The position numbers and the translations under genes are program-made. The notes below the pieces were generated by a model that ran no database searches, had not been told where the DNA came from, and saw nothing but the letters and a program-made list of their open reading frames with translations. From a virus, in the IMG/VR virus record IMGVR_UViG_3300034280_001050, positions 1 through 27,953 of that record: a stretch of 27,953 nucleotides of DNA; one strand, given 5' to 3'. This document shows, one piece after another, positions 5,094 through 20,741 of the stretch. Numbering within the stretch: position 1 is the stretch's first letter; each line of letters starts with the position of its first letter.

Positions 5094-5651
5094 TTATTTT
5101 TTAATTGCTGTTCTGTAATATCTAGCTGTAACAGCAGTACTTACAGGGGTGATCTTGAAACTAATTATACCTGAATTTTCTTCAAATGTATAATTAAATA
5201 GATTGTTGTTTGTGTTTGTTATGATATTTGATTCCGAAACGTTTATGTCAGTTCCATCATTTAATACAAGGACATCTGAGGCGTACATTTCTGCCCCCCT
5301 TGTTATCTGAATAGTATACTTAACGGTTGACCAGACGCTTTCTGTGAAAGAGTCTAGGACAGTTGCGTTTTCAATATCGCAAACTGTTGCTGAAGTGTCG
5401 TTATTTCCATCAACTCCTAAAAGCTCTCCTGTATTCTCAGCATCTAGAGTTGCAAGATCTGATTCAAGTTGGGATACCTTGTAGTCAATAGAATTTACAT
5501 CTGTAGATCCATCAATTCCAACCTTAGCTTGCAATGCTTCAATAGCATCGTTTGCATTTGCATGTTGCTCTGAATGCGACGGTGTTGATAGGTTGCTTGT
5601 AGAAGTAGGGTTTACTAATGTGTCTAAATCTAATGGAAAATCTGTTGCCAT
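5094..5651 (-). CDS. Virion structural protein, possible tail appendage
   Basis: A 185-residue protein read from the ATG at 5651, chosen because GGAGG lies five to six bases upstream; an in-frame ATG at 5684 would add 11 residues but lacks a ribosome site. Residues about 22-50 contain the motif SEQHANANDAIEALQAKVG, seen in many phage tail and appendage proteins, followed by a short coiled coil (VSQLESDLATLDAEN). The C-terminal 100 residues are beta-rich (VWSTVKYTIQITRGAEMYASD), resembling the C-terminal domain of the neighbour at 3618-5072. It lies between the 2OG-oxygenase operon and the fibre genes. The exact role is unknown. Confidence 0.75.
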   Translation of the reverse strand: MATDFPLDLDTLVNPTSTSNLSTPSHSEQHANANDAIEALQAKVGIDGSTDVNSIDYKVSQLESDLATLDAENTGELLGVDGNNDTSATVCDIENATVLDSFTESVWSTVKYTIQITRGAEMYASDVLVLNDGTDINVSESNIITNTNNNLFNYTFEENSGIISFKITPVSTAVTARYYRTAIKK

Positions 5652-5707
5652 TTTTGCCTCCAGGCAGTGGTGCTTATTATACAATTATACATTAATAAAA
5701 TTATAAA

Positions 5708-6520
5708 TTAGCCAATTAGTTTTGTTCCACCAGGAACTTTTGTTGAGCTTGAATCTCCCTCTGATTGCTGTGGGTAAAATTTTAATTTTGCAAGTGTACC
5801 GTCTGGCCTTGGTACTTTTATAAATCCCTTTATTGGATCTGATGGCATTCTTACTCCATTGTACCCAGCAGGGTAGTGCCAGGGGTCTTCTTCTCTTAAT
5901 GTTGGGGTGGGCTTTGGGTCTGGGTTCCAAACTCCATTTTTTGTAATTAAAGACGGAATGCAAAACCTTTCTCCAGAAATTATTTTCTTAACTCCGTGTC
6001 TAGTGTATCCTTCATGCATTACCATTGTACCTGCTTTTGGCTTATATTTAAAATCATATTGAGGATATACTAATTCTCCTCCTAAATAGTCGTCATTTGG
6101 ATATATTACGGTACCCCAAAAAATTGTTTGAACCATGTGGTCTTGATTATCTATATGATAAAACATTTCTAGGTTATTTCCATAGTCTGTTTTCATTGGG
6201 TTTGAATCTTTCCACATTTTTATATAGTTAAATGGACTAGCATTCCAATCTGATTTTTCATAATCATTTAAAACGTCTTTAATTCTTTTTTGAAGTAATT
6301 CATCTAATTCAATTATATCAGAAAATGAATTTTCAAAACCTTTATATGTTGTAGTCAAGCTTGGAGTCATTAATCTTTGATCCCAAAACTTAAACGCATG
6401 ATGTGGAAGATCTGAGTAATTAAACTCTTTGAACCATTTTGTTAATATATCACATTCTTCTTTTGACAAAAAATCATGATATATTCTTACATTATCGTCA
6501 CACAAACTTTCAACATTCAT
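5708..6520 (-). CDS. 2OG-Fe(II) oxygenase, prolyl-4-hydroxylase-like
   Basis: A 270-residue member of the 2-oxoglutarate/Fe(II)-dependent dioxygenase family. The iron-binding triad is visible: H122 and D124 in FYHIDNQ, and H175 in GYTRHGV. R185 in SGERF fits the 2-oxoglutarate carboxylate ligand. The GGELVYP segment before the second histidine is typical of prolyl hydroxylase-like members. Such enzymes hydroxylate protein side chains or small molecules. It is the last gene of a four-gene operon (7889 to 5708), three bases after its neighbour. The last 40 residues are Ser/Gly/Lys-rich and lie outside the fold. The substrate is unknown; a virion protein is a reasonable guess from context. Confidence 0.85.
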   Translation of the reverse strand: MNVESLCDDNVRIYHDFLSKEECDILTKWFKEFNYSDLPHHAFKFWDQRLMTPSLTTTYKGFENSFSDIIELDELLQKRIKDVLNDYEKSDWNASPFNYIKMWKDSNPMKTDYGNNLEMFYHIDNQDHMVQTIFWGTVIYPNDDYLGGELVYPQYDFKYKPKAGTMVMHEGYTRHGVKKIISGERFCIPSLITKNGVWNPDPKPTPTLREEDPWHYPAGYNGVRMPSDPIKGFIKVPRPDGTLAKLKFYPQQSEGDSSSTKVPGGTKLIG

Positions 6521-6523
6521 GTC

Positions 6524-6727
6524 TCACCACTTTCCTAAAGGGCACTTGGCATCTTTAAGCTTGGCTTTTAAAGGCATAATACACCCACACTTTTTGCATT
6601 GTTTAGTAAATTTAAATAATTCCTCACAACCGTTGCAGATGTCAAGCCTACTTTTAAACTCAACTTCGTCACTACGCTCATACTTAGGATCGAGTAAATG
6701 CCACGGATAAATCTCTACTTCACTCAT
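6524..6727 (-). CDS. Small zinc-ribbon protein
   Basis: A 67-residue protein with a probable zinc-binding array: ICNGCEELF (CxxC), then QCKKCGC, and a final CPLGKW. This arrangement recurs in small uncharacterised phage proteins. The ATG at 6727 overlaps the stop of the preceding nucleotidyltransferase gene in ATGA, and the 2OG-oxygenase gene starts three bases downstream, so the three are probably translated together. The spacing of the Cys pairs suggests one zinc site. The role is unknown; a partner or specificity factor for one of the neighbouring enzymes is possible. Confidence 0.8.
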   Translation of the reverse strand: MSEVEIYPWHLLDPKYERSDEVEFKSRLDICNGCEELFKFTKQCKKCGCIMPLKAKLKDAKCPLGKW

Positions 6728-7173
6728 TGCTGATCATCAAATATAAGTATATTTGCTTTTTCAAATACATTATGCGGAAAGGCATGCAAAGTTTTGTATG
6801 CAGTAACATCACAAGTATTTTCTAGAATAGTTTTTAGATCGTGAACTAAACGTTCTTTTATCTCGAGGTTATCTAAAGTTATATCCGTGGCAAAGTCTAT
6901 GTCGCTACTTCTTTTTGTTTGATTTTGAACAAAACTACCAATTAAATGAGCTTTTTTAAAACCATAAAATCTAAATATGTTTTTTATATTTTCTAGATTT
7001 TTTACAATGTGAGGAACTCTATAATCTGTTAGATCTTCAAATGTATGATTTAAAATAGGGGCTGTAATTGCGGGGCAGTTTTCATAAATATAGCCATTGT
7101 GATTTCCTATCTCTATATCTCTCCTAGTAATTTGAGGACCACAGTAGCAGGTATACAAATAGTAATGTTTCAT
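6724..7173 (-). CDS. Minimal nucleotidyltransferase-like protein
   Basis: A 149-residue protein with the polymerase-beta-type nucleotidyltransferase signature: G79-S80 in LIGSFVQ, then D91 and D93 in KRSSDIDFA. A third carboxylate is not obvious. Family members transfer a nucleoside monophosphate to proteins, RNA or small molecules. The ATG at 7173 overlaps the upstream stop in ATGA; a GTG at 7194 would add seven residues but has no better ribosome site. The N-terminal 60 residues (YLYTCYCGPQITRRDIE) are unlike minimal MntA antitoxin-type enzymes. No HepT-like partner is adjacent, so a toxin-antitoxin role is not supported. Confidence 0.75.
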   Translation of the reverse strand: MKHYYLYTCYCGPQITRRDIEIGNHNGYIYENCPAITAPILNHTFEDLTDYRVPHIVKNLENIKNIFRFYGFKKAHLIGSFVQNQTKRSSDIDFATDITLDNLEIKERLVHDLKTILENTCDVTAYKTLHAFPHNVFEKANILIFDDQQ

Positions 7174-7889
7174 GAGTATTTTTTTCTCTGCCACATATTT
7201 TTTTTATAACCATTTTCAAAAGATGAACGAACAACATAGCGTTGACCTATAGATTCATCTTTGTATTCAGAAAACTCTGGAATGGCCATCTCATAATCTT
7301 CACGCCTAAAAGGAATGACCTGAATAAATGGCGTACCTTTTTTTATGACACCCTTAAATCCTCTTTCAACAATTATTGAAAAAAACCCGTCAGACATAAA
7401 GTTATCAGTGTCTATAACACCGCTAATAACTCTAAATGGTAAATTTTCATGAAACATTGGGTGAATAAACATGCAGCTTACACCTTCTTCTGTTTTAACT
7501 GACCACTGAGGATTAATACGAAACACTTCGTCCATATATATCTCTCTACTAAAAGGAAATCCTTTAACTTGCTCTGGAGAGTGCATTGAAATAATTTCTT
7601 TTTCTTCAACATTGGCATAGCTATACACTATACGCTTTCCAGTTGCATCAATCATTACATCTACTGGAAACTTTAAAATATACCCTGCAGTTATAGAATC
7701 AAATATAGCCATGCAGCTTTTTATAGTTTTGTTACTTGTTCCTTCTGGAAGATTATATTTAACAGAATCCGTAGTGTATTTGTCATGGTCTTTATACCAC
7801 TCAGGAACCATTTTTACTGCAGGTTCAGGAAATGGTGCGTAGGAAATTGTATAATTAGTTTTAGGAACAAACTTTATAACACTAGACAA
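7170..7889 (-). CDS. Conserved phage protein of unknown function (DUF6065-like?)
   Basis: A 239-residue soluble protein. The opening (VIKFVPKTNYTISYAPFPEP, then VPEWYKDHD) and the later IKSCMAIFDSITAGYILKFPVD resemble an uncharacterised family found beside 2OG oxygenases in environmental phages; the DUF6065 assignment is from memory and tentative. No catalytic motif is evident. The start is TTG at 7889, supported by AGGGTG a few bases upstream and the absence of a nearby in-frame ATG. It is the first gene of the four-gene operon and overlaps the nucleotidyltransferase gene by ATGA. Confidence 0.7.
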   Translation of the reverse strand: MSSVIKFVPKTNYTISYAPFPEPAVKMVPEWYKDHDKYTTDSVKYNLPEGTSNKTIKSCMAIFDSITAGYILKFPVDVMIDATGKRIVYSYANVEEKEIISMHSPEQVKGFPFSREIYMDEVFRINPQWSVKTEEGVSCMFIHPMFHENLPFRVISGVIDTDNFMSDGFFSIIVERGFKGVIKKGTPFIQVIPFRREDYEMAIPEFSEYKDESIGQRYVVRSSFENGYKKNMWQRKKYS

Positions 7890-7904: not shown

Positions 7905-9005
7905 TTAATAAAATTCTCTTAGGTTGTATACTAACATATTTTCTGTGAAAAATATATCATACGGTTCACAGTTAATTGAATATACGGTCATTGGAGTGTT
8001 CATATGAATTACGCTTACAACAGGAGTCCAATTGTCTGCTTGATAGTTATATACTTCATAAGTTTCATCTATATCAGCAGCTATTACAAAAGAATGTACT
8101 CCATTTTTTCTGGCCAAAATATAATGGCTTTCAGAGAACCAGTCACCATTAATCAACATATGTTGGTTAACTTCTCGAGTGCTAATACTAGTAATTGTTG
8201 TAGAAACAACGCCATTATTTGTAAACTGTTCTGAAGCCCAATTTGTTAAATCAAAACCAGGGCCAAATGTAGGAATTTCAGAGATGTCAAGAGACAGCAG
8301 CTCGTCTCCTACGGACAAGTTATTAACCGTCTTGTAACCATCAAGAGTTAGGACGTAAGTGCCTCCACCCAAAGATCCGCAGAAGTCAGCAGGTGTAGGA
8401 ATACATGGTTCTGGTTCAGCAATAATTACAGGCTCGTTAACAACAACAGGATCGTTAACAACAACAGGATCGTTAACAACAACAGGATCGTTAACAACAA
8501 CAGGCTCGTTAATAATGACAGGCTCGTTAATAATGACAGGCTCGTTAATAATGACAGGTGCGGTATAAGAATAATAAGTATAAGAAACTGATGTACCAGA
8601 ATCTACGGTAGATCCAGCCGTAGGTGTCTGAGAAGAAACTGTGCCATTGTTTCCAGATGTTGCGCCTGAAGAAGTAGATGATTCTCCAGAATAAACTAAT
8701 CCAGCGGATGAAATCATTGACTGGGCTGAAGATCTTGATTGACCAGATAAATTAGGAACTGTTATTCCTACATAAATTTTATAAACAAATGGTACGGGTG
8801 TTCCAAATGGGACAACTGTGCCAGCAGGTATACTTTGCGAAGAAACATCTTTATCTTGAGCTAAATAATTAACATTTGTATGTGCTGATGTATAATTTAG
8901 TTTCTTTGAAGATAATAGTGAAATTGCTGCTGATTCTTTTAATCCAACTAAAGTTGGAACATCAACTTTTCTAACTCCAATTTGACTAGCGAAGAATCTT
9001 CTCAT
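7905..9005 (-). CDS. PASTA-repeat protein with C-terminal Hint (hedgehog/intein) domain
   Basis: A 366-residue protein with three parts. Residues about 14-146 are two PASTA-like domains (VPTLVGLKESAAISLL; VPNLSGQSRSSAQSMI). Residues 150-198 are eight hexapeptides, PVIINE or PVVVND. Residues about 205-363 are a Hint fold: C209, GTYVLTLDG, LSVGDELLS, a block-B-like SESHYIL (H294), and an end FFTENMLVYN (N361). Hint domains self-cleave or splice proteins. The canonical penultimate His is replaced by Tyr360, and N361 is followed by Leu, so full splicing is unlikely; N-terminal thioester cleavage at C209 is possible. The ATG at 9005 overlaps the upstream fibre stop (TAATG), suggesting coupling and a virion role. 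Confidence 0.85.
   Translation of the reverse strand: MRRFFASQIGVRKVDVPTLVGLKESAAISLLSSKKLNYTSAHTNVNYLAQDKDVSSQSIPAGTVVPFGTPVPFVYKIYVGITVPNLSGQSRSSAQSMISSAGLVYSGESSTSSGATSGNNGTVSSQTPTAGSTVDSGTSVSYTYYSYTAPVIINEPVIINEPVIINEPVVVNDPVVVNDPVVVNDPVVVNEPVIIAEPEPCIPTPADFCGSLGGGTYVLTLDGYKTVNNLSVGDELLSLDISEIPTFGPGFDLTNWASEQFTNNGVVSTTITSISTREVNQHMLINGDWFSESHYILARKNGVHSFVIAADIDETYEVYNYQADNWTPVVSVIHMNTPMTVYSINCEPYDIFFTENMLVYNLREFY
8412..8558 (-). repeat. 18-bp tandem repeat encoding PVIINE/PVVVND
   Basis: Eight 18-bp units. On the plus strand they read GGCTCGTTAATAATGACA (three copies) and GGATCGTTAACAACAACA (three copies plus variants). They encode a rigid-looking proline-spaced linker between the PASTA and Hint domains. 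Two sub-families sit in blocks, which suggests stepwise duplication. Confidence 0.9.
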
Positions 9006-10558
9006 TATGCACTCAGGTCTCCCATAACAACCCAGCTATTTGTTCCACGCTTTAATAAAGTAGCGCTAGACCATTGTGCACGAAGCTTTAAGCCAGGAGT
9101 TGAATTTGGAGTAAACCCTGATCCTGCAATTGTAACTTGAGAACTTGTTGTTTGTAAAACCTCTATTGTTGTTCCTGTTAAAAAGCTAGGTGAATCAACT
9201 ATTGTTAGTGTTCCTCCACCTGACATTTCAATTAATTTAAATGCATCAGATGGCACTATTGAATATGAACCAGGCTGAGGATTGGTTTCAATTATCTTAT
9301 TTATTTTTGCGTCTAATCCCGCCTGTGTAGCAGTTGAAATTGGTTTAGAAGAATCAGATGTATTACTTACATTACCAAGCCCAACCATTGCTGCTGTAAT
9401 TCCTGAAACTGTACCAGTAAAAGTTGGAGACTCTATTGGTGCTTTTGCATCTAATTCAATACGTGTAGCATTTGATACGGGCTTTGATAAATCTGGTATA
9501 TTGTCAACAAATTCAAGACCTACCATGTTTTTTGTAATACCAGAAACATATCCAGTAAATGTTGGGTTTGCTAATGGTGCTTTGGAGGCAAGATCAGATG
9601 TCAAGTTAGATATTTTGTTCTGAGAGATTCCTGCCGATGAGCTAATATCCATATCTACAATTGTAAAGTTTGCAATTTTTGCAGATGTTACTGAGCCTGA
9701 TGCAATTTTGTCAGAAGTTACTGAATTAGATGCTAAGTTTATTGAATTAATTGAAAGTGGAATAATTTCATCTTCTCCAACTGAGTTAATCTGCATCATT
9801 AATTGTGAAACTGTGTTTTCAGGCAAAGTTACTGTTCCTGTAAATGTTGGTGAATCAATCGGAGCCTTAGATGTAAGGGTAGATGTTAATGTGGCAGCAA
9901 AATTTGCATCATCACCAAGTGCTGCTGCTAGCTCATCAAGTGTGTTAAGTGCTGCTGGGGCTGATGCGATTACTGCATTTACCTGTGCTGTTGCGTCTGT
10001 AATTGCTTCTGATTTAGCAGTTGCGATTGCTGAGGCCTGTGCTGTTGAAACTGGCTTTGCTAAATCTGATGTATTGTCAACATTTTGAAGACCTACTGAA
10101 GACTTTGTAAGTGACTCTACTGCAGTTAAAACTTTTGTGTCTGCTGCAGATGCGGCTGCTGAAATAGCTTCTGACTTGGCAGTTGCTACATTTGCAGTGG
10201 TTGCTAAAAGTGAAGTATCTGCAATTCCGTGTACGCTTGTTGTGGCGTTGTTGTGGTTAGTAACTGCTGTAGCTACTTCTGCATCAAGTGCTGCTGCACC
10301 TGGAAGTTGAGCCAAGGGTATTAATCCTGCTCCGTCAAGAGAGGCTACTCCGTTGGCAACACCTTTTGTGCTAAGGGCAATGTATTCTTCTAGTGTACCT
10401 GAAAGAGCATAGTCAAGTTCTCTCCATGGGGTGCTTCCATCTCCGATTTTAAATGTATTTAAATCTAAAGATATTGCAATTTCTCCAGCATAAAGTGTTG
10501 GATTATCTCTAAACCAATCATCGTCTATATCTCTTCTTAATTGAATTCTAGTTGCCAC
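9005..10558 (-). CDS. Tail fibre with Mtd-like N-terminal domain, second paralogue
   Basis: A 517-residue fibre protein read from the GTG at 10558, chosen because GGAGG lies eight bases upstream and the resulting MATRIQLRRD aligns with the MATVRLQLRRG start of the fibre at 796-3135. An upstream ATG at 10573 would place the ribosome site inside the gene. Residues 1-55 are the Mtd-like domain (NPTLYAGEIAI, IGDGSTPW). The shaft carries SPTFTGTV and VGLGNVSNTSD repeats. The C-terminal tip differs from its paralogue, so the two fibres may recognise different receptors. It overlaps the preceding gene by 11 bases and the next by one. Confidence 0.85.
   Translation of the reverse strand: MATRIQLRRDIDDDWFRDNPTLYAGEIAISLDLNTFKIGDGSTPWRELDYALSGTLEEYIALSTKGVANGVASLDGAGLIPLAQLPGAAALDAEVATAVTNHNNATTSVHGIADTSLLATTANVATAKSEAISAAASAADTKVLTAVESLTKSSVGLQNVDNTSDLAKPVSTAQASAIATAKSEAITDATAQVNAVIASAPAALNTLDELAAALGDDANFAATLTSTLTSKAPIDSPTFTGTVTLPENTVSQLMMQINSVGEDEIIPLSINSINLASNSVTSDKIASGSVTSAKIANFTIVDMDISSSAGISQNKISNLTSDLASKAPLANPTFTGYVSGITKNMVGLEFVDNIPDLSKPVSNATRIELDAKAPIESPTFTGTVSGITAAMVGLGNVSNTSDSSKPISTATQAGLDAKINKIIETNPQPGSYSIVPSDAFKLIEMSGGGTLTIVDSPSFLTGTTIEVLQTTSSQVTIAGSGFTPNSTPGLKLRAQWSSATLLKRGTNSWVVMGDLSA
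9900..10068. repeat. Copy of a 169-bp repeat shared with 1241-1409
   Basis: Aligned without gaps, the two segments differ at only a few positions. They lie in the same reading frame of the two Mtd-type fibre genes. This level of identity between genes 8 kb apart points to recent duplication or gene conversion. Confidence 0.9.
10164..10380. repeat. Copy of a 217-bp repeat shared with 2738-2954
   Basis: The second near-identical segment between the two Mtd-type fibre genes, covering the shaft just after the N-terminal domain. Flanking codons diverge sharply on both sides. Confidence 0.9.
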
Positions 10559-11057
10559 TTGAATTTCCTCCATCTATTGTTAATGAGTATTGTGAATTAG
10601 AATTTCCACTATTTATTGTTGATGAGTATCCTGAAATAGAGTCCCCGCCAAGAATGAGTTGGTATTCAGATTCTGGGTAATATGTAGAATCTGGCTCTCC
10701 TCCATTTATCAAAGACATTCTTTTAAGATTTGGATTTAACACCTCATCATTTGGGCCGCCGCCGTCAAGGCCAATTATAACAGGAATATTTTCTTCAACA
10801 TTAGCGTTTTCGTTAATATTAGAAAAGTCAATAGTTTCTTTTAGGTCAATTGTGTGAACATCTCCATCGTAAGAGTGAGTGTGCATGTAAAATGGGGCGG
10901 GATCGTCAGAAGCTGGAGTCAAGTCAACCCAAATACTACCGTTGTATATCTTAATGTTTTTGCTTGTAACATTAAAATACACATCTCCAGATGATCCAAT
11001 AAGTGGATCTTCTGTAAGTGTAAGTAGATTGAGTAGGGACTTAAACTTTTTAGCCAT
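10548..11057 (-). CDS. Virion structural protein, fibre-associated
   Basis: A 169-residue protein starting MAKKFKSLLNLLTL, related in its first 45 residues to the next gene upstream (both have a GDVYFNVTSKNIKIYNG-type or GQIYYDTSNQTMYYYNG-type beta hairpin, common in phage appendage proteins). The middle contains HTHSYDGDVHTID and a Gly/Asn/Ser-rich C-terminus (YSSTINSGNSNSQYSLTIDG) suited to a beta-helix edge. The ATG at 11057 follows AAGGA. It overlaps the downstream fibre by 11 bases, suggesting coupling. The exact function is unknown. Confidence 0.75.
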   Translation of the reverse strand: MAKKFKSLLNLLTLTEDPLIGSSGDVYFNVTSKNIKIYNGSIWVDLTPASDDPAPFYMHTHSYDGDVHTIDLKETIDFSNINENANVEENIPVIIGLDGGGPNDEVLNPNLKRMSLINGGEPDSTYYPESEYQLILGGDSISGYSSTINSGNSNSQYSLTIDGGNSSGN

Positions 11058-13536: not shown

Positions 13537-15471
13537 CTATGCGCTAATATCTACCAATTCGCAATTGCCATCAGAGCTGCAAGCAAGTGTCGCATTTACA
13601 GAAGTACCATCTTCTGTTTCATAAAAAGATAGATCTTCCCATCTAATTTCTTTAGGCATTTTTGCAACAAGGGATTCGTACTCTTCCTTGGTTACCTCTT
13701 GGTAGGGGGCTTGCTTATAAGTATGATCTGAATGAGGCAAAAATGAGATTCCAGAAACTTCATCAAAGTGCTTGTATACCCAGGCGCCCACTTCCATCCA
13801 CTCATCTTCTTTTACAGAAACGGTAATAGATGGCTTGTGTTCACACCATGCACGTTGATAAATTAACCAAGTGTTTAAGTGATCTAGGGCAGTCAGGTCG
13901 CTTCTAACAATTGCGCCTTCTGGAGCTTTTACTGGAAATGAAAAAACATAAGTTTCATTTGGCTTCATAACATCATCTTCTACTGGAATTCCAACTTCTT
14001 TTAAAAAAACAGAAATAGGATCTCCTTTAGATCCACGAACTGTTCGAATGTAGTATGGAGAATGCCATGGATGCATTCCTGAAGATACTCCTACAAGCTG
14101 AGATACTGTTCCAGAAGGTTTTACGCATGTAATTGCTGCTGACTCTGGGATTCCTATCTTGCTAGCCTCTTCTTTATTTGTGTCTCTTGCTTTTTCACGC
14201 ATAGACATTAAAAAAGCCTCTAATGCAACCATGTCTTCTTTTCCAGACATAAACTTATGACCAAACTGTCCAGTAAGGGAAACGCCCAAAAGCCTTTCCT
14301 CCTCTGTGTTGTCTTTCCAAATTTTTCTAAGATACTTAAAATCTGTTAATGTTGCTTGCCAGGTTCCAAGGATTGTTGCAAGCTCAACTTTGCGCTCAAT
14401 ATCTTTCTTTGTATCGCTTTCACGTAGTACGACTTCTGAAAGATTACAAAATTGATAAGGACGCAAAATAATTTCTGAGCAAGGGTTTGTTCCGTAATGA
14501 ATTTCTGGATCTCTTCGTCCATACTTTGAGGCTTGCTTTTGAGCTGCTGCAACATTATATATTCCACGCTCTCCTGATTTTGAATCATAAAGGGATTTCC
14601 ATTCTGCAATAAATTGTTCCATGTCTGGCTTGCGAGAATAAGCTACAGAGTTATTTGAAAGAGCACGTTGCGTATTGTTTTCCCACCAGTTTCCTGATTT
14701 AGCTGCGGCCATTTCAATATCGTTAATATTTGAAAGAGAAATCATAGCTGATCGACGAACCCCTCCAACAACAACAACTTCACCAATTTTGCACATAATG
14801 TCATGCGCCTCTATGGGCTTTAAGTTTCTTCCTGCTGCTGATTTAAACTTTGCGATTGTAAAATCAAAAAGATTGACTAAAGGTTGAGGACCTGAAGATC
14901 TGCCTCCCATTGTTTTTAAACGTGCGCCAGCTGGGCGAACCTTTGAAACATCAACTGCTGGAATTTGTCCTGACCAAAGTAATGCAAGAAGCTCACGGTA
15001 AGCTTTTGCCCAACCTTGCTTTGAATCTTCTACTGTAATTACTGTTGTAGACTTTTCAAATGTTTCTGGGACGGAAGGAAGCTTGTTAATATACTTATAT
15101 TCAACAGAAAAACCAACACCTGTTCCGCACATAAGAATATACATAGTTTCATCAAAAGATCTTGGCGAATCAACTGGTACAAATGAACAATTGTAGCCTG
15201 CTACATTGTCTCTTTCTAATGCTGCTCCTGAAGTCATTACGGAGCGCATAGAGGGCATAACGTTTCTTTTAAATACACCGTCTTTTAATTCCGCTACAAG
15301 CTTTTCAGTTGGAATGTAATTATAATTTTCTTTTAAGTGGTTTAGCATAAAGACAAAATATCTATCCACCGTTTCACCCCACGTTTCACGACGGTTCTCT
15401 TCTGGAATCCATCTAGCGTAACGTGATAACGCAATAAAATTTTCATACGGGTTTGCAATAGTATTTGACAA
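13537..15471 (-). CDS. nrdJ: Adenosylcobalamin-dependent (class II) ribonucleotide reductase
   Basis: A 644-residue monomeric class II reductase that makes deoxyribonucleotides from ribonucleotides using coenzyme B12, supplying phage DNA synthesis. Visible signatures: C95 in AGYNCSF and C342 in QFCNLSE (the active-site redox pair), N329-P-C331-S-E333 (TNPCSEI; thiyl-radical cysteine and glutamate), the PSGTVSQLVGVSSGMHP loop, and C631/C637 in the C-terminal CSSDGNC shuttle. All key residues are intact. It is shorter than the Lactobacillus-type enzyme of about 740 residues. The start is TTG at 15471 with AAAGG upstream. It lies between the lysis and tail genes rather than with replication genes. 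Confidence 0.95.
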   Translation of the reverse strand: MSNTIANPYENFIALSRYARWIPEENRRETWGETVDRYFVFMLNHLKENYNYIPTEKLVAELKDGVFKRNVMPSMRSVMTSGAALERDNVAGYNCSFVPVDSPRSFDETMYILMCGTGVGFSVEYKYINKLPSVPETFEKSTTVITVEDSKQGWAKAYRELLALLWSGQIPAVDVSKVRPAGARLKTMGGRSSGPQPLVNLFDFTIAKFKSAAGRNLKPIEAHDIMCKIGEVVVVGGVRRSAMISLSNINDIEMAAAKSGNWWENNTQRALSNNSVAYSRKPDMEQFIAEWKSLYDSKSGERGIYNVAAAQKQASKYGRRDPEIHYGTNPCSEIILRPYQFCNLSEVVLRESDTKKDIERKVELATILGTWQATLTDFKYLRKIWKDNTEEERLLGVSLTGQFGHKFMSGKEDMVALEAFLMSMREKARDTNKEEASKIGIPESAAITCVKPSGTVSQLVGVSSGMHPWHSPYYIRTVRGSKGDPISVFLKEVGIPVEDDVMKPNETYVFSFPVKAPEGAIVRSDLTALDHLNTWLIYQRAWCEHKPSITVSVKEDEWMEVGAWVYKHFDEVSGISFLPHSDHTYKQAPYQEVTKEEYESLVAKMPKEIRWEDLSFYETEDGTSVNATLACSSDGNCELVDISA

Positions 15472-17865: not shown

Positions 17866-18933
17866 TTAATCCTCTAGCTTAATATCGTCTTTTCTATCAT
17901 TAAAATCGTAAAGATGATCTGTTGCGTATATAGGCATAGCAGATTCATTTTCATCATAAGAATATCTACCTGGCTTTGAAACAAGATCACGGTTACCAGA
18001 CTTTAAAACAAATTTCTTTGTTCTTGGATGTCCTGCATCATCTATATCTTCTTTTGTAGCAAATAATCTACCATGCCACTGATTATTCTCAAATCCATCT
18101 TTTTCTATTTGTGCCATCTTTGCAGCAAAGTCTTCTTCGGAAAGAGATTGTCTTAGGTCTCTAAACTCTTGTGGCTGTTTAGCCATTAAAAAATGTCTAA
18201 CGTAAAACTTATGACCTTTTATTGGAAAAACTGAATGTGGGTGATCTGTTCTAAATAACATTCCATCTCCAGCTTCCATTTTGTATATTACTGGATCATC
18301 AATCATCCAGCACTCTTTTTCTTCTCCATTTTGATCAACATAAAAAGACTTTTCAGCTGACTCTTCATCTATAAACTGAATCTCGCCGCCTTCATAATCA
18401 TCGTTTATGTAAACATTATAGTTAAAAAATGCGGGGGCTCCAGTTAACCACATTCTTCTATCTTTATGAAATTCCATAGCATATGCACTCTTTGGATTTG
18501 TATTTATAGTTTCTGCAATTAGAAGGTCTCCGTATTCCCATCTTGCTGGATTTTTAAACATATGAGTATCTTCTCTTGAATATCCTGGTTGGTCAACTAG
18601 CTCTAACCATGAAGTTGGTATATTAGGATCTTCTCCCCAAAGTTCAAAGTATTCTTTATTCAAACAATTTTCTTTGTAGTATTTTAGAGCTGCAAAAAAT
18701 GAGTTCATAACTTCTGTTACAAACTGTCCACCTTCTGTTGGGCAGTCTTGCCACCCAGCTTCTTGCCTTGGATATGCCTTAGAGTACTCTCCCCAAGGCT
18801 TCCAGTCTGTCCAAGGACCAAAGAAATTAATCTCTTCTGTTTTTGATTTTTTTAAAATATCATATAGTTTTTGTGGGTCCTTTACTGCATTCTTAATAAG
18901 CAGTACGTCTTTTGTGAGCTCTATAAATTCCAT
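17866..18933 (-). CDS. 2OG-Fe(II) oxygenase
   Basis: A 355-residue 2-oxoglutarate/Fe(II)-dependent oxygenase. H156 and D158 in MEFHKDRR and H233 in HPHSVFPIKGHKF form the iron triad; K242 or R246 would hold 2-oxoglutarate. YNVYINDDYEGGEIQFIDEE is typical of the prolyl-hydroxylase-like fold. It is longer than the oxygenase at 5708-6520 and not closely similar outside these motifs. The ATG at 18933 lies five bases after TATAAT, indicating a leaderless mRNA. It is neighboured by two sulfotransferase-like genes and a cupin. A substrate cannot be read from sequence. Confidence 0.85.
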   Translation of the reverse strand: MEFIELTKDVLLIKNAVKDPQKLYDILKKSKTEEINFFGPWTDWKPWGEYSKAYPRQEAGWQDCPTEGGQFVTEVMNSFFAALKYYKENCLNKEYFELWGEDPNIPTSWLELVDQPGYSREDTHMFKNPARWEYGDLLIAETINTNPKSAYAMEFHKDRRMWLTGAPAFFNYNVYINDDYEGGEIQFIDEESAEKSFYVDQNGEEKECWMIDDPVIYKMEAGDGMLFRTDHPHSVFPIKGHKFYVRHFLMAKQPQEFRDLRQSLSEEDFAAKMAQIEKDGFENNQWHGRLFATKEDIDDAGHPRTKKFVLKSGNRDLVSKPGRYSYDENESAMPIYATDHLYDFNDRKDDIKLED

Positions 18934-18938
18934 AATTA

Positions 18939-18966
18939 ATTATACCATAGCCCTTATGGTTTCCAA
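18939..18966 (-). promoter_or_regulatory. Promoter giving a leaderless oxygenase mRNA
   Basis: On the minus strand TGGTATAAT (18947-18939, extended -10) precedes the ATG at 18933 by five bases. TTGGAA lies 16 bases further upstream, inside the last codons of the neighbouring gene. Confidence 0.65.
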
Positions 18967-19718
18967 AACAAGGAGTTGTCGTTATATATAGCATAGTCTA
19001 GATCCATATACTGTTTTAGTTTACCCTTATCATCTTCCGTTAAAGAATCATAAAGTAATTTAGAGGCAGGAAGAGTGTAAGGTTTTGAGTTTTTGTTTTT
19101 TTCTAAAGCTGGATAAAAACTATTGCTGCCTAAGTCATCTATAATTTTTTTAGATATTTGCACATTATCAATATTAATAAGATCTTTCATTTTTAAAAGA
19201 ATATTGATTCTTTTAAGCCTGGATAGTATTAACTTAATATTTTCTTCGTCTTTAAGAAAAGAGTTGTCAAATATAATAGACCCATTATTTGTAAAATCAT
19301 TTAAAATCATTTTGCTATAGTAATTATGGAACCTAGTATTTTTTGCTACAAAATCAATAAATTTATTTTTATCTAGATGTAAATTTGTTTCTTTCCTGGA
19401 ACCTATTTTAACCTTTACTTTATTGTCTACCACCATAGCATACCAACTTGCAGCTCTTTCTATGGGATCTCTAAGTATTGAAACAATATAGGTGTTTTCT
19501 GATATTCTTGAGTCCCAACCCTGGTGTGCCATATCTTCTTCTCTTATTGCAAGGTTGTCTGAAGAAATCCAATCATGATGTTTAGTATAATACTCAGTAT
19601 AGCATTCTAAATCAGGATTTGATTTTATAAGAGGCTTAACAATAGAATCTATAAACCTTCTTCCATCACATTTAGCCATATGTAAAAAATAAAATGAGTT
19701 ATATTTTATGGCTTCCAA
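18954..19718 (-). CDS. Sulfotransferase-like protein, second of a tandem pair
   Basis: A 254-residue protein of the sulfotransferase fold. FLHMAKCDGRRF (residues 11-22) matches the 5'-phosphosulfate loop that binds PAPS, with K16, and ILRDPIERAASWY (81-93) matches the 3'-phosphate motif, with R83 and S91. It shares HQGWDSRI and the ending LFWKP with its neighbour; the two are clear paralogues. Sulfotransferases move sulfate from PAPS to sugars, tyrosine or lipids. The start is TTG at 19718, with GAGG upstream, overlapping the neighbouring gene by 13 bases. The acceptor is unknown. Confidence 0.8.
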   Translation of the reverse strand: MEAIKYNSFYFLHMAKCDGRRFIDSIVKPLIKSNPDLECYTEYYTKHHDWISSDNLAIREEDMAHQGWDSRISENTYIVSILRDPIERAASWYAMVVDNKVKVKIGSRKETNLHLDKNKFIDFVAKNTRFHNYYSKMILNDFTNNGSIIFDNSFLKDEENIKLILSRLKRINILLKMKDLINIDNVQISKKIIDDLGSNSFYPALEKNKNSKPYTLPASKLLYDSLTEDDKGKLKQYMDLDYAIYNDNSLFWKP

Positions 19719-20431
19719 AATAGATCCTCGTTATTATATATATAGTAGTCTAACATTAAATTCTTTTTTATATTTTCTTTATCTGAATCTGTTAAAGATA
19801 AATATAGCTCTTTTGATTCAGAGTTAGTGTAATAATCTGTTTCTTTAAAAACATCTAGATCGGGTATTATCTTATTAAGATATAAATCTTTTGTTATTTT
19901 TTCAGATATAAGATTTTTGTCGCATTCCATAAAAGTATTCATTTTGATAATCATATTGACTCTAAGCGCTCTTTCAAACACCAAATCTATATTTTTTATA
20001 GGACTATTGTTTGCAAGAAAGGATCTGTCTTTTCCTAAGTCGTTTATTAGGCATTTGCTTACTGGATTATAAAATCTTGAGTCTGTATTTACATAACTTA
20101 TAAACTTATCTTTTAACAAATGCACCTTTGTATTTTTATTATATCCTGGGGTATTTTCGACATCTGCTTTAATTCTATCTATATACCAGCTTACCGCTCT
20201 TTCGATTGGGTCCCTCATTATCATTACAATGTATGTGCTATCAGTTATTCTTGAGTCCCATCCTTGGTGATGAAAAGGTGATTGATCGTTTTCGTTTACA
20301 GGAATATACTCTTCTTGGTTGTATACTGTAAATTCTGGGTTGCTATTTTTTAAAGGAATAATTATGCTATCGGTAAATCTTCTACCATCGCTTTTAGGTA
20401 CATGTAAAAAATAAAAAGAATCGTATTGCAT
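19706..20431 (-). CDS. Sulfotransferase-like protein, first of a tandem pair
   Basis: A 241-residue sulfotransferase-like protein. FLHVPKSDGRRF (residues 8-19, K13) is the PAPS-binding loop and IMRDPIERAVSWY (71-83, R73, S81) the 3'-phosphate site, both closer to the family consensus than in its paralogue. The ATG at 20431 has only a weak GAAAG upstream. It is followed directly by the second copy. Both are very AT-rich and lysine/asparagine-rich compared with the fibre genes, which may reflect transfer. A role in decorating virion or host-surface glycans is possible but unproven. Confidence 0.8.
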   Translation of the reverse strand: MQYDSFYFLHVPKSDGRRFTDSIIIPLKNSNPEFTVYNQEEYIPVNENDQSPFHHQGWDSRITDSTYIVMIMRDPIERAVSWYIDRIKADVENTPGYNKNTKVHLLKDKFISYVNTDSRFYNPVSKCLINDLGKDRSFLANNSPIKNIDLVFERALRVNMIIKMNTFMECDKNLISEKITKDLYLNKIIPDLDVFKETDYYTNSESKELYLSLTDSDKENIKKNLMLDYYIYNNEDLFWKP

Positions 20432-20653: not shown

Positions 20654-20666
20654 ATTTAAAACAAAG

Positions 20667-20741
20667 TGGGCCTATTGGGATTTGAACCCAAAGTCGTTTG
20701 TATATAAGACAAATGCTTTAACCAGATTAAGCTATAGGCCC
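20667..20741 (-). tRNA. tRNA-Ile (anticodon UAU)
   Basis: A 75-nt cloverleaf on the minus strand. Acceptor GGGCCTA pairs with TAGGCCC, discriminator A; D stem GCTT/AAGC with GG in the loop; anticodon stem TTTGT/ACAAA around loop CTTATAT (anticodon TAT); T stem TTGGG/CCCAA with loop TTCAAAT. CCA is not encoded. UAU reads AUA directly, without the lysidine-modified CAU tRNA most bacteria use. It would help translate AUA codons in this AT-rich phage. Confidence 0.93.

Follow-up and report, generated by a model that had tools for sequence, protein, structure and literature searches.

A candidate modification cassette with a DUF6065 protein beside a repeat-bearing phage tail protein gene

Virus-encoded prolyl hydroxylation has a described precedent in PBCV-1, for which 4-hydroxyproline and a prolyl 4-hydroxylase (P4H) are on record (Eriksson et al., 1999, as cited in PMC9301287), and prolyl-hydroxylase-like folds are described as widespread in aquatic phages (PMC12774648). 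The 2-oxoglutarate (2OG)-Fe(II) oxygenases of marine phages have been treated as metabolic or ecological auxiliary genes, and the portions of these studies drawn on here propose no tail-repeat substrate for them (PMC9599517; PMC11561400; PMC12774648). Hydroxyproline glycosylation is described for Skp1 in Dictyostelium and Toxoplasma (PMC3515798; PMC11570480). Here we examine IMG/VR virus record IMGVR_UViG_3300034280_001050, a virus fragment of 27,953 bases that was analysed whole and is called the window below, in which a 2OG oxygenase gene closes a set of four tightly spaced minus-strand genes, the other three encoding a 239-amino-acid (aa) DUF6065-related protein (U239), a minimal nucleotidyltransferase (NTase) and a DUF6171 zinc ribbon. 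Directly upstream lies the gene for a tail protein with a PASTA domain, a short tandem repeat and a Hint-like domain. We give an even chance to the reading that the four genes form a modification cassette for this PASTA-repeat-Hint protein, and less to the exact chemistry proposed for each single enzyme.

In this proposal the PASTA-repeat-Hint protein would be the main substrate, and the oxygenase would most likely hydroxylate the prolines, one per unit, of its (PVIINE/PVVVND)n repeat. U239 would be the core factor, recognising short-period repeat polypeptides or modifying them itself, while the MntA-like NTase would probably attach a nucleotide to the side chain of a protein, possibly at the hydroxyl that the oxygenase had made in a preceding step. 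The zinc ribbon would probably be an adaptor, although this is a guess. The features concerned are as follows, in minus-strand order.

9005..10573, minus strand: tail-fibre protein, 522 aa, with an Mtd_N N-terminus (Pfam Mtd_N 7.6e-8; tail PHROGs)
7905..9005, minus strand: PASTA-repeat-Hint tail protein, 366 aa (PASTA 8e-17; phrog_38766, virion structural protein)
8412..8558, minus strand: tandem hexapeptide repeat PVIINE/PVVVND, residues 150-198 of the PASTA-Hint protein (seen in its sequence)
7905..8381, minus strand: Hint/intein-like C-terminal domain, from Cys209 of the PASTA-Hint protein (Pfam Intein_splicing 0.017, below cut-off)
7170..7889, minus strand: U239, divergent DUF6065/phrog_7084 protein with a predicted dUTPase-like fold (phrog_7084 8e-49)
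6724..7173, minus strand: minimal nucleotidyltransferase, MntA-like, 149 aa (Pfam Polbeta 1.1e-7)
6524..6727, minus strand: zinc ribbon DUF6171/phrog_13558, 67 aa (DUF6171 E 2.5e-7; phrog_13558 2e-16)
5708..6520, minus strand: 2OG-Fe(II) oxygenase (phrog_61 1e-15)
5094..5684, minus strand: next tail-module gene, 196 aa (weak phrog_20172 match only)

Further tail-module genes follow the oxygenase, the first of which (the 196-aa gene) has homologues in the tail blocks of loci L018-L021. A first-pass annotation of this DNA had described the four genes as a coupled operon interrupting a run of virion genes, and both statements are borne out. All four reading frames are present on the minus strand; the TGA of U239 overlaps the ATG of the NTase gene (ATGA), the TGA of the latter overlaps the zinc-ribbon ATG in the same manner, and the zinc-ribbon stop and the oxygenase ATG are three bases (GAC) apart. 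The 156-aa GTG form of the NTase in the open reading frame (ORF) list is an upstream extension of the 149-aa ATG form. Mtd_N and tail PHROG matches flank the set on both sides, and the GC content of the four genes (0.30-0.38) is slightly below that of the tail genes measured (0.37-0.43). The coupled unit nevertheless starts earlier than had been claimed, at the PASTA-Hint gene (9005-7905), which shares one base with the tail-fibre gene (10573-9005). Since only 15 bases lie between its stop and the TTG start codon of U239, the natural unit comprises at least five genes. Fixed protein ratios, which the annotation had also read into the overlaps, do not follow from them; ATGA overlaps are common in phage operons, and they support co-expression rather than fixed ratios.

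The repeat of the proposed substrate scores 30 at period 6. Its Hint-like domain carries, on inspection, a CGSLGGGTYVLTLDG..VGDEL block, and the homologue at the related locus L208 has the same layout (Intein_splicing 0.0043). Judging from these sequences, self-cleavage or ligation of the tail protein downstream of the repeat region is conceivable.

The oxygenase retains an invariant HxD...H iron triad (H122, D124, H175) and a 2OG-binding arginine conserved at about 90% (R185). Its predicted model has a mean pLDDT of 74, the core of residues 1-203 being mostly good and the 67-aa C-terminal tail poor. The closest solved folds found by Foldseek are PBCV-1 vCPH (1.8e-10) and bacterial P4H, and VIA aligned the model with an algal P4H bound to (Ser-Pro)5 (Z 17.5, 165 residues, 2.6 A). 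The likeness to vCPH and other P4Hs thus covers both the fold and the HxD...H...R residues, and PBCV-1, like the window, combines a virus-encoded hydroxylase with a proline-bearing repeat protein in one genome. Unlike PBCV-1, however, the window derives from a tailed phage, encodes the proposed substrate next door, and places its predicted hydroxylase in a cassette with DUF6065, NTase and zinc-ribbon genes. With the marine phage auxiliary genes the window has in common the superfamily (phrog_61) and the clustering of several 2OG genes; that the adjacent tail repeat would be the oxygenase's substrate is a new proposal made here. DNA hypermodification by a TET/JBP-like oxygenase together with a glycosyltransferase was rejected as the leading explanation because the oxygenase core is prolyl-hydroxylase-like.

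Two side observations concern 2OG enzymes more broadly. The window encodes a possible second 2OG oxygenase, a 355-aa protein at 17866-18933 with a weak 2OG-FeII_Oxy_3 match (0.0017). At related loci (L001:5114-5725, L209:913-1509 and L211:5400-6011) a 203-aa family labelled 'ferrochelatase' by phrog_2954 (3e-21) nevertheless has an HxD...H pattern, and the 2OG profile matches its copies in L209 and L211 (2.6e-16 and 6e-17); going by sequence, reported phage 'ferrochelatase plus 2OG' pairs may in part be 2OG-2OG pairs.

How widely the four genes travel together was assessed by scanning viral contigs with U239, the zinc ribbon, the NTase and the oxygenase, which yielded 104 distinct loci with U239. 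Of these, 48 have a 2OG gene no more than four genes from U239, 7 a zinc ribbon and 4 an NTase. All four NTase-bearing loci also carry U239, zinc ribbon and 2OG genes, with the NTase immediately downstream of U239 each time, and the foursome is limited to these contigs. As a widespread unit it accordingly fails: the first-pass annotation had held that rare co-occurrence in other genomes would speak against its proposal, and the neighbourhood search found the set at only 4 of 104 loci. Two of its links are widespread, namely that of U239 with a repeat protein and the clustering of 2OG genes at U239 loci. The arrangements themselves vary. At the diverged locus L208, whose NTase is 55% identical, the genes run PASTA-(NPPPYD)n-Hint, U239, NTase, 2OG, zinc ribbon, with the last two swapped; in L001 and L002 an additional 2OG-like gene separates the zinc ribbon from the oxygenase; and L209 and L211 have a zinc ribbon and two 2OG genes without U239 or NTase, preceded in L211 by an Fn3-(PVIIAT)n protein. 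The variable combinations at L208, L209 and L211 therefore make the cassette modular, with U239 (with or without the NTase), zinc ribbon and 2OG genes separable, and a short-repeat tail protein is its recurring companion.

Such variability is also what would be expected if the cluster were a chance collection of auxiliary genes in a variable tail region, serving no common pathway. Tail regions are hotspots of gene exchange, the exact foursome occurs in only four contigs, and gene order and content shift at L208, L001 and L002. Nevertheless, we regard this explanation as quite improbable: the NTase always directly follows U239, the linkage of DUF6065 to repeats is seen repeatedly in phages as well as in Alpha- and Betaproteobacteria, and 189 of the 1484 ORFs lying up to four genes from U239 or the zinc ribbon are 2OG-like, against 3 of 429 at least eight genes away, an enrichment of about 18-fold in a count that includes redundant loci. 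A further pattern bears on the oxygenase's substrate. At viral loci that have both a repeat protein and 3.5 kb or more of sequence downstream, a 2OG gene accompanies 18 of 22 proline-bearing repeats and 1 of 22 proline-free (FGA)n repeats (Fisher 2e-7), and this tracking of repeat proline by 2OG genes is suggestive.

U239 matches phrog_7084 across 234 residues, and Syn9 gp43 belongs to the same PHROG. The Pfam profile search gave no PF19541 (DUF6065) match for U239 itself, although six of eight aligned relatives match; relatives occur in haloarchaeal tailed viruses, in cyanophages and in more than 580 viral stretches. Structure prediction, which the first-pass annotation had recommended for this protein, gave an AlphaFold2 model (79 sequences) with a mean pLDDT of 94, a pTM of 0.88 and a dUTPase-like fold. 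Foldseek placed dUTPases and dCTP deaminases in the lead (best E 2e-4), and VIA gave Z up to 10.9 (121 residues, 4.5 A). A sequence search of the PDB returned no meaningful match, and the PF00692 (dUTPase) profile did not match U239 at E up to 1 or 10. U239 has GVIDTD and KGTPFIQ in register with dUTPase motifs 3 (GxIDxDY) and 4 (GxxIAQ), in a weak hhalign alignment (E 0.03, probability 1.6%), but HPMF at the expected site of motif 2 (PRSG), a C-terminus, YKKNMWQRKKYS, that lacks motif 5 (RGxGGxGSTG), and extra N-terminal and C-terminal parts. The comparison with the canonical dUTPase profile is thus not significant, and the likeness of fold rests on the model; as a predicted feature of DUF6065 it is a new observation here. 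W31, K57, C59, D64, G69, W129, D162, Q190, P193 and R196 are kept across viral and bacterial DUF6065 members, and D160 with somewhat more variation, so that U239 presents an invariant Cys59 and a conserved K57/D64/D160/D162/Q190/R196 set without the dUTPase phosphate-binding motif. A working dUTPase was rejected for U239, given the absent motifs, the lack of a PF00692 match and the separate dUTPases of bacterial genomes.

Another alternative is that U239 is a nucleotide-metabolism enzyme or regulator of the dUTPase/dCTP-deaminase fold, acting on a (modified) deoxynucleoside triphosphate, with the oxygenase and NTase acting on nucleotides or DNA. D160/D162 and Q190 fall in register with dUTPase motifs 3 and 4; in HF2, S-RIM4 and many related phages DUF6065 has a ribonucleotide reductase gene adjacent or close by, and one of B12-dependent type is present in the window (13537-15471); and no canonical dUTPase was found in four large viruses with DUF6065. 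We nonetheless judge it unlikely, for motifs 2 and 5 are missing, the profile alignment is as weak as given above, the oxygenase is P4H-like, a canonical dUTPase is encoded separately in each of the eight bacterial genomes tested, and the bacterial partners of DUF6065 are an SSSN-repeat peptide and often also a subtilase and an ECF sigma factor, rather than nucleotide genes.

DUF6065 is also linked to repeat proteins, and this linkage, in phages and bacteria, is new here. A tandem short-period repeat ORF precedes DUF6065 on its own strand, usually with no gene in between, at 55 of 106 distinct viral DUF6065 loci (duplicates having been collapsed by slightly different rules than for the 104 above), with units that include PVIINE, PVIIAT, NPPPYD, FTPFG, FTPYS and FGA. 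The DUF6065 loci of Syn9, S-RIM4, Sf-CH8 and HF2 showed no strong short-period repeat protein. A scan of a genome collection, with loci chosen by two peptide patterns, gave 64 bacterial DUF6065 loci, related to one another and mainly from Hyphomicrobiales and Hydrogenophaga. An (SSSN)n reading frame is present at 59 of these 64, and in 57 cases it lies within about 730 bases of DUF6065, when some 6 kb were usually available per side. In the examples examined the SSSN ORF has a signal-peptide-like start, and nearby genes encode a subtilase (PF00082), an ECF sigma factor, and MacB-like or OEP export proteins; across L142-L205 the peptide and DUF6065 are frequently joined by subtilase and ECF sigma/anti-sigma genes, as counted from crude ORF calls. 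The bacterial pair looks like an apparently undescribed small-peptide system; no paper on DUF6065 or SSSN-repeat peptides was found in the literature searched, whose scope left out most subscription journals.

The position of U239 admits another explanation, in which it is a non-enzymatic structural or chaperone partner of the repeat tail protein, such as a fibre cap or an assembly chaperone, with the oxygenase, NTase and zinc ribbon added to it independently. Genes for known fibre chaperones directly follow the tail gene, as U239 does, U239 stands beside repeat proteins even where there is no modification enzyme (e.g., at (FGA)n loci), and L209 and L211 show the zinc ribbon and paired 2OG genes without it. 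This we find rather doubtful, though worth keeping in view: the bacterial members have small SSSN peptides as neighbours, together with subtilase and ECF sigma genes, instead of fibres, the invariant Cys and K/D/D/Q/R set of phages and bacteria looks enzymatic, and the Syn9 copy sits next to halogenases at a locus with no strong short-period repeat protein.

For the remaining two members of the proposed cassette the comparisons are more distant. The NTase core (G79 S80, D91 D93 and D122, i.e., GS, DxD and a second D) is kept in three close homologues, and by eye also in L208. Its nearest NCBIfam family is MntA of type VII toxin-antitoxin systems (5e-6, 26.4 bits), with which it has the GS...DxD...D core in common, but it falls far below the cut-off of 60, has no adjacent HEPN toxin and bears an extra 70-aa N-terminus. 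A HEPN-MNT toxin-antitoxin system was rejected on the score and on the neighbours, which are U239 and DUF6171. MntA enzymes nucleotidylate protein side chains, and a protein hydroxyl is therefore a plausible acceptor for the window NTase. The zinc ribbon scores 31.4 bits against DUF6171 (cut-off 27), has two CxxC pairs (CNGC and CKKC), and is accompanied by a 2OG gene within three genes at 9 of 29 distinct zinc-ribbon loci.

Other modification genes recur at related loci, including PF11397 glycosyltransferases (4e-33, 6e-13), carbamoyltransferases and short-chain dehydrogenases. PF11397 presumably includes the Skp1 glycosyltransferase, and its members at phage loci are comparable to the Skp1 pathway, in which a prolyl hydroxylase acts first and a sugar is then placed on hydroxyproline; the window cassette, by contrast, has no glycosyltransferase. 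In Syn9 (L061:2750-6627, gp41-gp43) the DUF6065 gene gp43 stands immediately after two genes annotated as tryptophan halogenases and ahead of several 2OG/JmjC genes, and at two FTPYS-repeat loci, L013 and L282, sulfotransferase homologues are interspersed among the genes. The simplest common reading of these loci would be a set of protein-decorating enzymes whose make-up changes with the repeat. The window has two sulfotransferase-like genes of its own (18954-19718 and 19706-20431, the second above the Pfam cut-off), and their homologues sit in the DUF6065 group beside the tyrosine-containing FTPYS repeats of L013 and L282. Elsewhere in the window lies a tRNA-Ile gene with anticodon TAT (20666-20741). 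Loci L063-L119 have a recurrent cluster of c4, two DUF6065 genes, c5, 2OG genes, SGNH-like genes and a carbamoyltransferase, in which c4 is a distant DUF6065 paralogue (hhalign probability 75%) and the tail-repeat gene is often not adjacent.

Several observations weigh against a tail-modification cassette. Nearly half of the viral DUF6065 loci have no detected repeat protein, and no homologue of the viral 2OG, NTase or zinc ribbon was found at the bacterial DUF6065 loci, so the role of DUF6065 cannot depend on proline hydroxylation. A P4H-like fold, as predicted here, does not prove that proline is the substrate; lysyl hydroxylases score only slightly below P4H against the oxygenase model, and the fold therefore does not settle its residue preference. 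The four proline-bearing repeats that lack a 2OG gene are all FTPYS/FVPYS, and all four scored loci of this kind are without one. On the U239 tree the association reduces to four independent pairs, of which three go the expected way and none the opposite (p 0.25); with only three to four independent switches, it is not significant after phylogeny. Finally, the recurrence of ribonucleotide reductase genes near DUF6065, also in unrelated phages, allows a nucleotide role when taken with the dUTPase-like fold. On balance, the first-pass annotation's interpretation is supported in part: the reading with most support is the one it proposed, a common task directed at a virion molecule, and the likely target can be narrowed to the adjacent repeat tail protein; its alternative of an envelope molecule finds no support.

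If the four genes do modify the tail repeat, at least some aquatic-phage 2OG oxygenases, usually filed as metabolic and with target unknown, would gain a concrete substrate, and DUF6065 would stand as a family with the dUTPase fold whose members are linked to tandem-repeat proteins in phages as well as bacteria. We suggest, tentatively, that DUF6065 may be a new class of peptide-acting protein on a dUTPase fold that recognises or modifies short tandem-repeat polypeptides, namely phage tail repeats and proteobacterial (SSSN)n, to which phages would add residue-matched enzymes, prolyl hydroxylases for proline repeats and perhaps sulfotransferases for tyrosine repeats. The bacterial DUF6065-(SSSN)n pair is itself open to direct study in culturable rhizobia or Hydrogenophaga.

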